Part shown: piece after piece, positions 15,555 through 24,739 of the stretch | How positions within the stretch are numbered: position 1 is the stretch's first letter | How the letters are laid out: the number at the start of each line of letters is the position of its first letter | The notes under the pieces: model-generated | The model's input: the letters and a program-made list of their open reading frames with translations, nothing else | Databases searched by the model: none | What the model was told of the DNA's origin: nothing | DNA from: a virus | DNA: 27,313 bases | Direction: 5' to 3' (one strand) | IMG/VR virus record: IMGVR_UViG_3300046012_000362 | Coordinates: 1-27,313 of that record | Translations under genes and position numbers: made by a program

Positions 15555-15747
15555 TTACTTTCTTTCCGTGCCGGTCTTTGGCTACGCTGCCGATTAACCC
15601 TTTGATATAACCGGTTCTGCCAATTGGGCGCTTCAAGCCCCATGACGGCTCGGTTTCGTCGAGCCATTCGATAGCTTTCTCGATGAGATTTCGATACTGT
15701 TCGCCAAAACGGGCAATCAGTTTCTCTGTCTGCGCCCGATCCGTCAC
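15526..15747 (-). CDS. Small basic protein coupled to TerL
   Basis: 73 residues from the GTG at 15747, which overlaps the TerL stop (GTGTGA). An alternative frame extension to 15831 would overlap TerL far more. The sequence is helical (EKLIARFGEQYRNLIEKAIE) then basic (SVAKDRHGKKVNG). The tight overlap implies coupled translation. Function unknown. Confidence 0.6.
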   Translation of the reverse strand: MTDRAQTEKLIARFGEQYRNLIEKAIEWLDETEPSWGLKRPIGRTGYIKGLIGSVAKDRHGKKVNGNEQSSSD

Positions 15748-17075
15748 ACTAGCCTCGTTTGTCCGAATCCGACTTCGCCGCGGTGAATCGGCAGCACCTG
15801 CTCGCAGAGATACCTGAGCGCGTCCGAACAATGTGTTCGTTTCGGATCGCTCTTGTCCATCTCATAAATCGAGTTGCCGTGCGAGTCCTGTTTCCAGGTG
15901 ACTTGCTCCAGATCGCTCACCAGTTCCGAGCACTGCGGATCGATCATGAGACGTCGCTCACCGGCGGCATTGCACAGCGCGGCATTCACCGAATTGACGC
16001 CATCGCGCACGAGATTGTGCGAACTGGCGACCATCATGCGAAGTTCGTAGCGCGGGTCGTTGCGAAAGTACTTCTCGACCAGGCCCCAATCCGACTCGCC
16101 CGCATGGTTGCGATTATTGCCGGCCGGATCACCATAGATCCACACCGGCAACTTGTACCCATAGCGGCAGTATTGCTCGGTCCGTCGAATGAATTCAGCG
16201 CACGCCGTATTGATGTTGCTGTCCGGCAGACTGATTTCATCGAGAATGCGGATATGCTTCGAAGACTCGACGCCCAAGTGCGCGTAGGGCCTGTAATCCT
16301 GCACCTGAGCAATGACCGAAGACATCGGGTTGACGTTGAAATCGAGCGACCAGCACAATTGCAGATTCGGGTCGTATTCGATCTTGCGGAGATTCTCCGA
16401 TCGGTTGAACGCATGGAACACGCGCCCGCTGCGGATGTTGAGATATTCGCCGAGAACTTCCTGCCGATAGAATCGCTCATCGTACGACTGCTCCAGCCGG
16501 TCGTACATTTCAAGAACATGATAGTTTTCGCGCGGCGATGCGAGCACCGCCTCAAATCCCGGCTGCGGATCGACTATAAAGCGGCGATACACCCAATCGA
16601 AGCCGTTCGGCGTCCAAACCGCGAACGCTTCGCGCAACAACGCCTGCGGATCACGCAAACGCGCCTGGAGGCGTAAAAACGAATCCTCTTTGCAAAACGT
16701 CAGTTCGTCGCAGCCGAACCACGCGAGGTTCGTGCCGCGCAACCGGTCAGGATCGTCCAGCGAGCGAAACAGGATATTGGATCGCGGCTCGGACAAGTAC
16801 AGCCGATTTTCCTGCTTGTAGAAGCGATAGGGTATGCCTTCAAGTTCCAGAATTTCCCAGAACGCGACTTGCGTCACGTCTCGCAGCATGGGATACGATG
16901 GCGCTCCTACGAGGCCATGGCGGCCGGCGTTGATGTGCGCGAGGAACAGGGACTCGTAGACTAAAGCCCTCGATTTCCCGCTGCCTACTGGACCCGAATA
17001 TCCTTTGTATTGGACTCGGAGGGCGTGGAATTTTCGCTGGCTCCGGAGGGGTTGGTAGATCCACGCTCTTTCCAT
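15744..17075 (-). CDS. terL: Terminase large subunit
   Basis: A 443-residue DNA-packaging ATPase/nuclease. Visible motifs: Walker A GPVGSGKS (residues 28-35), Walker B hydrophobic run ending in CDE (D123, E124), coupling motif VWTPNG (153-158), and RNase H-like nuclease acids D245 (SLDFNVNP), D316 (YGDPAG) and D418 (HCSDALRY). It would dock on the portal and cut concatemers. It overlaps the TerS gene by 91 nt, and no Shine-Dalgarno is seen. The length is within the normal range. Confidence 0.95.
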   Translation of the reverse strand: MERAWIYQPLRSQRKFHALRVQYKGYSGPVGSGKSRALVYESLFLAHINAGRHGLVGAPSYPMLRDVTQVAFWEILELEGIPYRFYKQENRLYLSEPRSNILFRSLDDPDRLRGTNLAWFGCDELTFCKEDSFLRLQARLRDPQALLREAFAVWTPNGFDWVYRRFIVDPQPGFEAVLASPRENYHVLEMYDRLEQSYDERFYRQEVLGEYLNIRSGRVFHAFNRSENLRKIEYDPNLQLCWSLDFNVNPMSSVIAQVQDYRPYAHLGVESSKHIRILDEISLPDSNINTACAEFIRRTEQYCRYGYKLPVWIYGDPAGNNRNHAGESDWGLVEKYFRNDPRYELRMMVASSHNLVRDGVNSVNAALCNAAGERRLMIDPQCSELVSDLEQVTWKQDSHGNSIYEMDKSDPKRTHCSDALRYLCEQVLPIHRGEVGFGQTRLV

Positions 17076-17647
17076 TCGTCAGTCAGCCAATCCGGGAATG
17101 CGGCTTTTGGCGCAAGCACTCCTTCATCGATTTCGTCCTTCCACTGTCCAAGTTCTTCAGCGGCCTGCTGCGCTACGGCTCGCAACTCTTGTGCGAGGGC
17201 TGTATCGCTGACATATTCCGCCACAAACTTTCCGCCGCGAATGCCCTTAATCCGTCGCAGCACAAAGCCGCCCGTGCCGCCCGGGACCTTCGCCATCGTC
17301 GGATCGGCGGCGCGCTCATCGGCGATCATCATCAAGCGGCGCATAATGTCGTTGTACATCCGCACGCGCGCCTGTTTCGAGGCGATCTGCATGTCAGCCA
17401 CTTTGGCAACTTGCGCTATAGCCTCCTCAGCGACGGCGGCATTGAGAGCTTCGATGCGGGCGCGCACGCGCGGCCGATTGGCGAGACGGCTGCCCTGCGA
17501 CGAGGCGTACGGCGCGGCATAGCCGGCGGCCAGCGCCGCTTCATGTTTGCTTTTGCCGAATAGCGCCCGGGTGCGTGCGAATTGCTCCTCGCGCATATCC
17601 GGCAGCGGACCAACGGCTGGCGGCTTTATTTTGCGTTTCGCGCTCAT
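16985..17647 (-). CDS. terS: Terminase small subunit
   Basis: A 220-residue protein directly before TerL. The N-terminal part has the helix-turn-helix pattern of small terminases (SKHEAALAAGYAAPYASSQG, then SRLANRPRVRARIEALN), followed by a helical oligomerisation region and a Ser/Glu-rich tail. It recognises packaging sites and feeds DNA to TerL. The long overlap with TerL suggests coupled translation. Confidence 0.85.
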   Translation of the reverse strand: MSAKRKIKPPAVGPLPDMREEQFARTRALFGKSKHEAALAAGYAAPYASSQGSRLANRPRVRARIEALNAAVAEEAIAQVAKVADMQIASKQARVRMYNDIMRRLMMIADERAADPTMAKVPGGTGGFVLRRIKGIRGGKFVAEYVSDTALAQELRAVAQQAAEELGQWKDEIDEGVLAPKAAFPDWLTDEWKERGSTNPSGASENSTPSESNTKDIRVQ

Positions 17648-17663
17648 CTAATTCGGCTGGGAT

Positions 17664-17822
17664 TCAGGCCGTTTCATCATCGTCATCGAACCATTCGTTA
17701 AACCTATCGAAGTTGGCCATGGTATCCGTTTCTATCTTTTTGGCGATCTCGACAGCCGCAGGCCTCATATAGAGGCCCATCAACTCGTCGTCATCGAGCC
17801 ATTCATCAGTTACGGCGTCCAT
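17664..17822 (-). CDS. Small acidic protein between Acb2 and TerS
   Basis: 52 residues with two similar acidic motifs (DEWLDDDEL near the start, NEWFDDDDE near the end) around a helix (PAAVEIAKKIETDTM). It ends 16 nt before TerS and starts about 32 nt after Acb2. Acidic micro-proteins of phages often mimic DNA, but this is a guess from composition. No Shine-Dalgarno is clear. Confidence 0.55.
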   Translation of the reverse strand: MDAVTDEWLDDDELMGLYMRPAAVEIAKKIETDTMANFDRFNEWFDDDDETA

Positions 17823-17854
17823 GTGTTTTCGCGCTCATTCAATACGTGTCAAAT

Positions 17855-18079
17855 TCAGAATGTGGTCGGTTTGGCGACGGAGCGGACGAGCGCCATGAAC
17901 CCTTTTTGTAGGTCGGTTTTCGCGATAGCGAGCCAGCGCTTATCGACGGTGGGCATCTCATTTAATACGTCAATGAGTTTCCCAACGTCCTCGCCCTTCA
18001 TTTTCGCGTCGTTCATCAAATCGATTTCTTCTTGGCTTAGATCGCGATAGCCGCTGATCTTCTGGTGTTGGTTATCCAT
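17855..18079 (-). CDS. acb2: Acb2-family anti-CBASS cyclic-nucleotide sponge
   Basis: A 74-residue protein with the family pattern GYRDLSQEEIDLMND near the start and RWLAIAKTDLQKGFMALVRS near the end, closing in KPTTF. Acb2 forms a small hexamer that sequesters cyclic di- and trinucleotides and so blocks CBASS and related cGAS-like immunity. Tyr11 and Lys26, recalled as ligand contacts in the Pseudomonas phage protein, are both present at the same numbers. Length fits the family. It lies upstream of the packaging genes. The start lacks a clear Shine-Dalgarno. Family membership is strong; activity here is inferred. Confidence 0.85.
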   Translation of the reverse strand: MDNQHQKISGYRDLSQEEIDLMNDAKMKGEDVGKLIDVLNEMPTVDKRWLAIAKTDLQKGFMALVRSVAKPTTF

Positions 18080-18123: not shown

Positions 18124-18339
18124 GTGGAGGAAGAGGACATATTCTGCGACTTTTGCGGCCGTACCGCCTATTTCCTGTGCGGCTCGATCATCGGCCCGGA
18201 TGCGACTCCCTGCGATGCGCCGCTGTGCCATGAGCACTACCGCGGCGGCTGCTGCCCGAAGCACGCGAAGCGGCCATTGCCGAGAGCGCCGGTAGTCATG
18301 CCGCCACGCCCGGATGGGGCGCAGTTGCGTCTGTTCTAG
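18124..18339 (+). CDS. Cysteine-rich zinc-finger-like protein, opposite strand
   Basis: 71 residues from the GTG at 18124, with GGAGGA spaced about 9 nt before it, one of the best ribosome sites in the window. Cysteines and histidines are spaced as in small phage zinc proteins: FCDFCGR, then PLCHEHY, then GCCPKHAK. It lies on the plus strand, divergent from acb2 by 44 nt and convergent with the Ntn hydrolase; the two stops share CTAG at 18336-18339. Function unknown; zinc binding is inferred. Confidence 0.7.
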   Translation: MEEEDIFCDFCGRTAYFLCGSIIGPDATPCDAPLCHEHYRGGCCPKHAKRPLPRAPVVMPPRPDGAQLRLF

Positions 18340-18887
18340 GATGCAAGCGGCAGCGACTTGATTACGAACGGACCACATACTGCGGAACAATGCCGCTCTA
18401 CTGCCTGGAGGACTCCCATCATTCGCCCATGACTGCCGCCCAAATCTTGCGTGCTATACAGTGCGCCAATGGCGATATCATCCCCACATCCGCACGCATC
18501 GTAGCCGTGAAGCGATTCGCCAATCTGGTAATCGCTTTGGATGCAAAACAGACGCCCAGCGTAGCCTAGCAGGAACGTGCCGCCGCTCTCTTCCTCGTTC
18601 GTCTTCCGGGCGTATCCGCCGTCTTTCAGGCATTGGCGAACGGAATCGGCGAACGAAGTGGCGAGATACTCCTCGACATCCTGGCCATCCGCTCGCGTTG
18701 GAATCTCCAACTTGTATCGCAGCAACTGCCCCATGCGAAAGGAAGACGTGAAGCCGAATAGGAATTGGCCCCGCTGGAACACCTTAGCATCGGCGCGGAC
18801 TGTGATTGATGCGCCGGACACGCCCGCGCTGTCGCCACCGATCCAGACTGTCTTATTAGCGTCTACGAATCCAGCGATAGCGGTCAT
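18336..18887 (-). CDS. Ntn hydrolase, HslV/proteasome beta-like
   Basis: A 183-residue protein with the proteasome/HslV fold signature. After removal of Met1 it starts at Thr1 (TAIAG); the acid of GGDSAG falls at 18 and the lysine of ADAKVF at 34, matching the Thr1/Asp17/Lys33 arrangement of HslV-type peptidases. GFTSSFRMGQLLRY and a CGCGDDIAIGAL turn near the C-terminus also fit. Phage versions are known but their role is unclear. It could process virion proteins or cut host targets. It overlaps the upstream gene by ATGA. No HslU-like ATPase is seen here. Confidence 0.8.
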   Translation of the reverse strand: MTAIAGFVDANKTVWIGGDSAGVSGASITVRADAKVFQRGQFLFGFTSSFRMGQLLRYKLEIPTRADGQDVEEYLATSFADSVRQCLKDGGYARKTNEEESGGTFLLGYAGRLFCIQSDYQIGESLHGYDACGCGDDIAIGALYSTQDLGGSHGRMMGVLQAVERHCSAVCGPFVIKSLPLAS

Positions 18888-19272: not shown

Positions 19273-19734
19273 TTACGCTGCCGCCCTTGCGGCCTTAATG
19301 CCTCGGTGCAATCGAACCTTGTAGGTACTTGTTACCGGCTCCGGTACTTCATCGCATAGCCGCTGCATCATCGCGTTGCGGAACTGGGTCACTCGCACCA
19401 GCGACACCAGCCGCTCCGCATCAATGCGCGCTTCGAGCTTTTCCATGTGTCGGCTCGAATCAGGCGCGTACTCGCCCGCATCCATCGGCGCCGTGAATCG
19501 GCAGTTCCCGGAACGCAGCACGTCGATCAACGCATTTCGCACCGCTTTACGAACATACATGAGCATGGCGTCGGCATAGCGGATGTTTTCGCGCCTCGCC
19601 CAAGCGTGCATATACGCCGCCTGTACTAGATCCTCGCCATCGATCTGCGGATACCGCACCACGATGTGCCGCGCATAGGCCAGCATGCCAGCCCGCAGGC
19701 GCACCAGTTCGCATTCAGCGGCAGCGTCGGTCAT
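19273..19734 (-). CDS. ECF-like sigma factor
   Basis: 153 residues. Region 2 is clear: YPQIDGEDLVQAAYMHAW, then a linker and LMYVRKAVRNALIDVLRSG. Region 4 is divergent but ends in the recognition-helix-like pattern STYKVRLHRGIKAARAA. Such a factor would direct host RNA polymerase to phage promoters, probably late ones. The ATG overlaps the stop of the membrane protein upstream. The family is inferred from pattern; the target promoter is unknown. Confidence 0.75.
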   Translation of the reverse strand: MTDAAAECELVRLRAGMLAYARHIVVRYPQIDGEDLVQAAYMHAWARRENIRYADAMLMYVRKAVRNALIDVLRSGNCRFTAPMDAGEYAPDSSRHMEKLEARIDAERLVSLVRVTQFRNAMMQRLCDEVPEPVTSTYKVRLHRGIKAARAAA

Positions 19735-23041: not shown

Positions 23042-24739
23042 TTAGTTGATATTGATCGACGCCACGGCGCTGCCATTGACCACGCCGAATGTCGCCGCGC
23101 CGCTCAGTGTGCGCGGCGACGTGACGTGGATATTCGACAAGCCCGCGCCGGAGAAATCTTCTACCGCGAAATACGCCCGCAGTTTGCCGGTCGTGTCGAT
23201 GATCGATGCGCCGGTGATCTGCACATTCCCCAGTCGATTGCCGCCGCCGCCCTGCTCGACCGCAATCGCGGAGTCATCATCGCTTGACCCGCGCTGATTG
23301 GCGTTGGTCACAGTCATGCCGGCGAACGTAAGCGCCGGGCCGGGGATGTCCCAGAAGTGGGCATCGGCTCCATAGCTGCCATCGAAGGACGAACTCGAGT
23401 TCTCGATGAGCACCGAGCCGCCTGGGCTGCCGGCGCTATTGTCCGATGCCTGATAGCCCGCGCCTTGATTGCGTGAGGTGGCAAAGTTCGACACGACGAT
23501 CGAGACCGCCGCGGCCCGGCTGCTTTGCGCCGATACCGAAACGGTCACGCCGTTGCCGGCGTTGCCCGATGCGCTGCTATTTTCGATGAGGATATTTTGC
23601 AGCGCATCGCTATCGCCGTTCGGTTCCACGTCGATGCCGGCCATTGGCAGCGTGCCCGTTGTGTTCGTGAACTGGCAGTGATCGATTGTGACGTTTTTCC
23701 CGGAGATCAACGAGAACGCATTGCGCCTGTTATTGTTGAACACCGAATCCGTGACTGAAACCGTGTCGCTGTAGCCGCGCGATCCCGCGCCAATGTAAAT
23801 CCCGTCGCCGCCCGAATCATTACAGGCAATCCCGGAAATGGTCACATCGCTCGATCCCTCGATGCTCAGACAGTGCCGGTACTCGCCGCTCGTGTATTCC
23901 GACTTTCGCATCTGGAAGATGCTCTTGCCGGGCGTGCCCGCGATGCGGACGTTGCTCACATCGACGACATTCAGCATGTGTTGATATTGCGAATAGCCAC
24001 TCGTGGCCGTCACGGTTGCCCCGGCGTCCATCACCACGTTTGCGCTGTTGGGAAAATTCAGCGGCGCGACGTTGTACGAGCCAGCCGGAATTTCGAGAAT
24101 CTGCTTATTCGCTGCGGATGAATTCAGCGCGTTTTGAAACACGGCCGTATCGTTGCCGCCGTGGCCGACCGAGCCATAGCTAGTCAGCATCACCGTATCG
24201 CCGGAGGGCGGAGGTGGTGGTTGGACCGGAGGTGGTGGTTGCACCGGCGGCGGCGGAGGTTCGACCGGTGGAGGCGGAGGAGGCGGCTGCTGTACGCTTA
24301 CCGGCGTGATCGTGATCTTGTCGATCTCCGCGACCCAGTTGGTGTGCTGCCGGACGAATCGGATCGAGTTCGAACCGGCCCGGAGGGGCAGCGTCACAGT
24401 CTGCGATTGCAGCCGCGTCCATGATCCAGTCGGAGGAAACGTCAGCACCTGCGCCGATCCGCCGTTCGCGCTCACGCTCGCAGGCATGCTGCTTGATGTG
24501 CCGTTGTCGAAGGTGACGGCAATCTGATACGAGCCGGACGCCGACGCCTTGACGTTGTTCATCGTCAGCGTGCCGTTGCCGGGTCCGCCCAGGTTCTGGA
24601 CGTTCTTACGGCCGGAGCACACTGAGCAACCGGCGATATCGGCGCTACCGCCGACCTGGTTGCCGGACGCCTCAGCTTCATAAATCGTTTGCGAGCTGGC
24701 GCACAACGACGCCGCGAATATCAGTACTGCGAGTTTCAT
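23042..24739 (-). CDS. Secreted CBM/beta-helix protein, probable polysaccharide-active enzyme
   Basis: A 565-residue protein with a signal peptide (KLAVLIFAASLCASS), a carbohydrate-binding module of CBM6/CBM35 style (IYEAEASGNQVGGSADIAG near the start, then GSNSIRF), a proline-rich linker at about 153-180, and a right-handed parallel beta-helix (repeats such as VTISGIACNDSGGDGIYIG). The fold is that of pectate lyases and phage depolymerases, but the signal peptide marks an exported, non-tailspike product. It probably digests host surface or environmental polysaccharide. The catalytic residues are not identified. Confidence 0.8.
   Translation of the reverse strand: MKLAVLIFAASLCASSQTIYEAEASGNQVGGSADIAGCSVCSGRKNVQNLGGPGNGTLTMNNVKASASGSYQIAVTFDNGTSSSMPASVSANGGSAQVLTFPPTGSWTRLQSQTVTLPLRAGSNSIRFVRQHTNWVAEIDKITITPVSVQQPPPPPPPVEPPPPPVQPPPPVQPPPPPSGDTVMLTSYGSVGHGGNDTAVFQNALNSSAANKQILEIPAGSYNVAPLNFPNSANVVMDAGATVTATSGYSQYQHMLNVVDVSNVRIAGTPGKSIFQMRKSEYTSGEYRHCLSIEGSSDVTISGIACNDSGGDGIYIGAGSRGYSDTVSVTDSVFNNNRRNAFSLISGKNVTIDHCQFTNTTGTLPMAGIDVEPNGDSDALQNILIENSSASGNAGNGVTVSVSAQSSRAAAVSIVVSNFATSRNQGAGYQASDNSAGSPGGSVLIENSSSSFDGSYGADAHFWDIPGPALTFAGMTVTNANQRGSSDDDSAIAVEQGGGGNRLGNVQITGASIIDTTGKLRAYFAVEDFSGAGLSNIHVTSPRTLSGAATFGVVNGSAVASININ

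Follow-up and report, generated by a model that had tools for sequence, protein, structure and literature searches.

A 74-codon gene lies just upstream of the packaging genes in IMG/VR virus record IMGVR_UViG_3300046012_000362, and it raises the question of whether this uncultivated phage carries a sponge for the cyclic oligonucleotide signals of CBASS immunity. The window analyzed here is the entire record (27,313 bases). End repeats are absent, so the record is probably a fragment. A first-pass annotation had proposed from sequence pattern, length and two residues that the product is Acb2, and had suggested a search against Acb2 and Tad1 family profiles.

Identification of the gene as acb2

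The reading frame is intact over 74 codons from ATG to TGA, and its translation is MDNQHQKISGYRDLSQEEIDLMNDAKMKGEDVGKLIDVLNEMPTVDKRWLAIAKTDLQKGFMALVRSVAKPTTF.

17855..18079, minus strand: acb2, putative 74-aa Acb2-family cyclic-oligonucleotide sponge (PF24729; Tyr11 and Lys26 present)

The suggested profile search gave PF24729 (Acb2_Tad1_hairpin) as the sole Pfam-A family for this protein, with an E-value of 3.6e-19 and 69.2 bits where 27 bits is the cut-off, the match extending over the whole profile (1-58 of 58). In PHROGs the protein falls into PHROG 717, a group of unknown function (E 1.1e-21), and phmmer against the PDB finds p26 of phage PaP2 (8h2j, 8ixz and others; E 7e-19), whose structures bear the title Acb2 in the fold search. 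A profile built from 59 relatives reaches PaP2 Acb2 at E 8e-31 and T4 Vs.4 (7uq2) at E 1.4e-5. Searches of NCBIfam and PADLOC with the 74-aa protein gave no match; neither result is counted against Acb2, because PADLOC-DB is a 2023 collection of defence proteins and not of counter-defence proteins. With tblastn, Acb2 found 232 phage records, with 47-66% identity among the matches listed (the best, 66%, at full length), and 208 places in IMG/VR, the best 80 of which reach up to 72% identity.

The length of the protein also fits the proposal, most relatives being equally long. Homologs of 74 aa from Erwinia, Cronobacter, Vibrio, cyanobacterial and uncultivated phages share about 58-72% identity with the window protein. 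Length varies within the family at the hairpin tip, and the PaP2 protein reaches 93 aa. As no other length is as frequent among the relatives as 74 aa, we reject the idea that the short form is a deletion.

An AlphaFold2 monomer model based on 59 aligned sequences has the two-helix hairpin expected of Acb2, with helices at residues 16-40 and 47-69; over most of this region pLDDT exceeds 90. The N-terminal arm is of low confidence in its first seven residues, and a short N-terminal helix is not confidently predicted. The best nine Foldseek matches in the PDB are all Acb2 (8h2x, 8h2j) or Vs.4 (7uq2), at probabilities of 0.98-1.00, and no other fold was matched in the PDB with an E-value below 0.1. 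Profile, pairwise sequence and predicted-fold comparisons thus all lead to Acb2 and to nothing else.

Thirteen positions are invariant in the 59 aligned sequences: Gln4, His5, Gly10, Tyr11, Leu14, Asn23, Lys26, Gln58, Gly60, Arg66, Ala69, Pro71 and Phe74. Both residues singled out by the first-pass annotation, Tyr11 and Lys26, are therefore where it placed them. Lys26 is presumably a residue of the ligand pocket; what our alignment gives for it is invariance. For Tyr11 a ligand role is better founded, as it aligns in the profile alignment with Tyr8 of T4 Acb2, and the Y8A mutant of T4 Acb2 has lost cyclic-dinucleotide binding (PMC12657218).

Among the solved proteins, the closest likeness is to Acb2 of PaP2 and PaMx33 (p26; 8H2J, 8H2X, 8IXZ). 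These proteins and the window protein share the N-terminal pattern MDNQHxKIxGYRDLSQEEID with Tyr11, Lys26, the hairpin, and the C-terminal pattern RWLAIxKTDxQxGxMAxxRxxAxPxxF. Identity to PaP2 Acb2 is nevertheless only about 45% in the structural alignment (8h2x), and the PaP2 protein has 93 aa whereas the window protein has 74, with 19 residues fewer at the hairpin tip. T4 Vs.4/Acb2 (7UQ2) has the hairpin, the GY motif, the conserved helix-1 lysine and the C-terminal helix in common with the window protein but is only 24-27% identical. In T4 Acb2, Phe82 stacks on the ligand (PMC12657218), while the same column holds Ala69 here and a corresponding Ala in PaP2 Acb2.

Nucleotide differences between the window acb2 and five relatives fall mostly at codon position 3 (20, 12 and 43 differences at positions 1, 2 and 3 in the comparison with locus L002), which indicates purifying selection, as with a selected protein. 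On its sequence, acb2 is clearly a real and well-identified gene, an ordinary further member of the Acb2 family. Its product is very probably Acb2, with a hexameric-sponge mechanism attributed to it from the family.

Expected mechanism

Acb2 proteins are hexameric sponges that sequester cyclic nucleotides without degrading them (PMC12043709, PMC10419184), and the window Acb2 is expected, by analogy, to act as the solved proteins do. In each chain, two helices are modeled as a hairpin, preceded by a flexible N-terminal arm with the GYR motif. Six chains would form a compact hexamer like those of the PaP2 and T4 proteins. Cyclic dinucleotides would be held in pockets between head-to-head protomers, and cyclic trinucleotides in separate pockets at trimer interfaces or in the central channel; cA3 is a known Acb2 ligand (PMC12043709). 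During infection the hexamer would sequester the signals made by host CD-NTases without cleaving them. CBASS effectors such as phospholipases and nucleases would thereby stay off, and the host would live long enough for phage production.

Alternatively, this homolog might no longer bind signals, or bind them differently, and be retained for some other function, or it might be a passenger in decay. Panoptes makes Acb2 a trigger, and phages with broken or altered acb2 have been found under this pressure (PMC12657218, PMC12657230); ligand specificity also differs from one Acb2 homolog to another (PMC12043709), which would fit changed binding. The intact frame, the retention of every invariant family residue and the concentration of differences at third codon positions all speak against loss or decay, and we consider this reading unlikely. 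In hosts with Panoptes, carriage of a working Acb2 would be expected to have a cost.

Genomic place of acb2

On the same strand, acb2 precedes the small-terminase gene by 0.2 kb and the large-terminase gene by 0.8 kb, with a 52-aa ORF in between. The neighboring genes are as follows.

15744..17075, minus strand: terminase large subunit (phrog_2, E 1.3e-34), the basis of the host-clade assignment below
16985..17647, minus strand: terminase small subunit (PF03592, E 3.8e-7; phrog_641, E 5e-10)
17664..17822, minus strand: very acidic 52-aa ORF between acb2 and the small-terminase gene, residues 12-42 resembling a coat spine-helix region
18124..18339, plus strand: 71-aa Cys/His-rich, zinc-finger-like ORF between acb2 and the HslV-like gene, on the opposite strand to both; Pfam and PHROGs gave no family match above noise
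18336..18887, minus strand: HslV-like peptidase-family gene upstream of acb2 (phrog_1040, E 1.6e-18)
19273..19734, minus strand: phage-encoded protein with sigma-70 region 2 (PF04542, E 2e-5), located upstream of the late genes
23042..24739, minus strand: 565-aa protein with a CBM13/CBM6-like domain, a proline-rich linker and a right-handed beta-helix, either a secreted enzyme or a tail spike

The sigma-70 region 2 protein might drive late transcription, acb2 included. A promoter scan around acb2 found nothing with the sigma-70 consensus, which may not apply here.

The first-pass annotation had called the place beside the terminase notable. Of 14 contigs that carry a phrog_2 terminase, five (the window, L003, L010, L011 and L080) have acb2 no more than 3 kb upstream of it on the same strand, L010 and L011 carrying near-identical Acb2; in L006 the gene is about 2.7 kb downstream of the terminase, and in the rest it is distant. 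With only five of 14 such contigs, we reject a terminase-side place as a fixed feature of the family. Other phages carry the gene near head or packaging genes:

Microcystis phage Mwe-JY05: acb2 0.2 kb upstream of the portal gene
Thiohalocapsa phage: acb2 between the portal and scaffold/coat genes
Leptolyngbya phage: acb2 one gene after the coat gene
Pseudomonas D14B: acb2 at the lysis junction, with a few genes separating it from the terminase downstream
PaP2: acb2 next to an ORF that carries a capsid-protein annotation

T4 differs from the window in having acb2 among its early genes, in the vs region. The nearest large neighbors at 56 distinct IMG/VR acb2 loci include portal and head genes, and also transposase, RusA and Sak4 genes. 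A late or head-region place thus comes up repeatedly in unrelated phages without being universal. The part of the earlier remark that stands is the proximity to head and packaging genes in several unrelated phages; as the gene lies elsewhere in others, its place is only mildly notable.

The acidic ORF beside acb2

The 52-aa ORF has 17 acidic and four basic residues. Its residues 12-42 match positions 103-133 of a coat-protein (MCP) profile with 20.5 bits, whereas 5000 shuffles of the same composition reach at most 4.5 bits, and BLASTP against the window's own coat protein gives E 8e-7. From our own reading of the order of elements, we place coat segment 103-133 at the expected position of the HK97-fold spine helix. 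An imperfect direct repeat of 32 nt, identical at 24 of 32 positions, marks both boundaries of the ORF.

17827..17858, unstranded: direct repeat copy 1, running from the last bases of acb2 into the leader of the 52-aa ORF
17636..17667, unstranded: direct repeat copy 2, running from the last bases of the 52-aa ORF into the beginning of the small-terminase gene

This is the best pair of 32-mers in 2.4 kb and it beats all 40 triplet shuffles, by one match only. The coat resemblance together with a repeat at both ORF boundaries suggests insertion of a coat-derived fragment, and our default reading is that the ORF is a recombination remnant of a coat gene.

A bolder reading would take acb2 and the 52-aa ORF as an acquired two-part counter-defence cassette, a signal sponge with a spine-helix mimic. 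The two are adjacent on one strand with the direct repeat at the gene boundaries, the likeness to the coat spine helix is far above that of the shuffles, and mutations in the capsid can assist phages in escaping CBASS (reviewed in PMC10419184). The ORF is known from a single genome, however, as an IMG/VR search found no relatives; the coat match spans only about 30 residues, and a remnant of the coat gene is simpler. We regard such a cassette as very unlikely, and give equally little credence to the role that its mimic would have, which is to block capsid recognition by a CBASS sensor as a decoy or to tune capsid assembly. If true, it would represent counter-defence in two layers, with Acb2 removing the signal and the mimic acting as decoy or assembly regulator. 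The remnant of a coat gene stays our reading of the 52-aa ORF.

Origin of acb2

The nearest Acb2 sequences are found in phages whose neighboring genes are unrelated to those of the window, and the 74-aa homologs, though similar in sequence, sit in other phage backbones where as a rule the neighboring genes differ. The only neighbors common to the window and other acb2 loci are an HslV-like gene (L062), a ParB-like gene (L011) and distant terminases. In L062 the HslV-like relative lies 2.2 kb upstream of acb2. By tblastn no acb2 was found in the flanks of terminase loci L084-L191, several of whose contigs end just upstream of the terminase; the sibling phage L084 (82% TerL) was left out, as its contig stops short of the acb2 position. 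A search for Acb2 in 22 bacterial genomes also found none, a result that is weak by itself because control genomes gave none either. As no terminase relative has acb2 beside it and the nearest Acb2 genes have unrelated surroundings, acb2 looks like a cargo gene gained by horizontal transfer. The GC content of acb2 (0.51, versus 0.57 for the window) agrees with horizontal gain, as weak evidence.

Target signal and probable host

It is hardly credible that the protein is instead of the Tad1 type, with the Thoeris signal gcADPR as its main target: the PF24729 name and hairpin model cover both Acb2 and Tad1, which also share the helical hairpin and the hexameric-sponge principle (PMC12043709), but Tad1 has an antiparallel beta-sheet at its N-terminus, ahead of the two helices (PMC12043709), where the window protein has only a short arm, and the close matches by sequence and by fold consist of Acb2 and Vs.4 proteins, with no Tad1 among them. 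The AlphaFold2 model of the 74-aa protein has zero predicted strands, hence no Tad1-like N-terminal beta domain. With this domain absent and the near matches all Acb2, we reject Tad1 membership and file the protein as Acb2.

With about 45-54% identity, the relatives of the window TerL in bacterial genomes belong almost wholly to Acidobacteriota, for the most part to Bryobacterales and Terriglobia. Judged from terminases of this identity, the host is probably a soil member of the Acidobacteria. The window phage would then differ from PaP2, a Pseudomonas phage, in its host. A SMODS-domain synthase above the Pfam cut-off is present in four of the 22 genomes with terminase relatives, and recognizable CBASS operons in three:

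L204: CdnC-like synthase with HORMA and TRIP13
L205: CD-NTase with E2 and a SAVED-HNH effector
L206: CD-NTase with a patatin-type phospholipase

The synthase of the first locus (L194/L204; genome G048, Acidobacteriota) is close to CdnC of E. coli MS115-1 (312 bits) and is encoded beside HORMA and TRIP13; the same genome carries a phage-like relative of the window terminase (L212). CdnC of E. coli MS115-1 is of the cA3 type, and on that basis we take the CBASS of G048 to be cA3-type as well. With terminase relatives in Acidobacteriota and CBASS operons in three of 22 genomes, a target for Acb2 exists in the probable host clade. The earlier suggestion that the host range includes bacteria with CBASS thereby gains indirect support. 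Among the papers searched, none combined Acidobacteria with phage and anti-CBASS.

In seven Acidobacteriota loci (L207-L211, L213 and L214), a syntenic block of about 13.5-16.5 kb begins with the terminase relative and comprises TerL, portal, scaffold, coat, tail tube and a protein of about 1300 aa; in L208 only the tail part was recognized as shared. Bacterial genes, for example an aminotransferase or CstA, lie close upstream of the terminase in some of these genomes. No integrase or replication gene was recognized in the seven blocks, without a systematic search. The block may represent an element of Acidobacteriota that is domesticated or resembles a gene-transfer agent.

This finding extends the range of Acb2 to a probable acidobacterial phage, with CBASS operons in the same host clade. 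It presents acb2 as a mobile cassette for which the late, head and packaging regions of unrelated phages are a frequent landing place, and a late-region place bears on when in infection CBASS needs to be held off.
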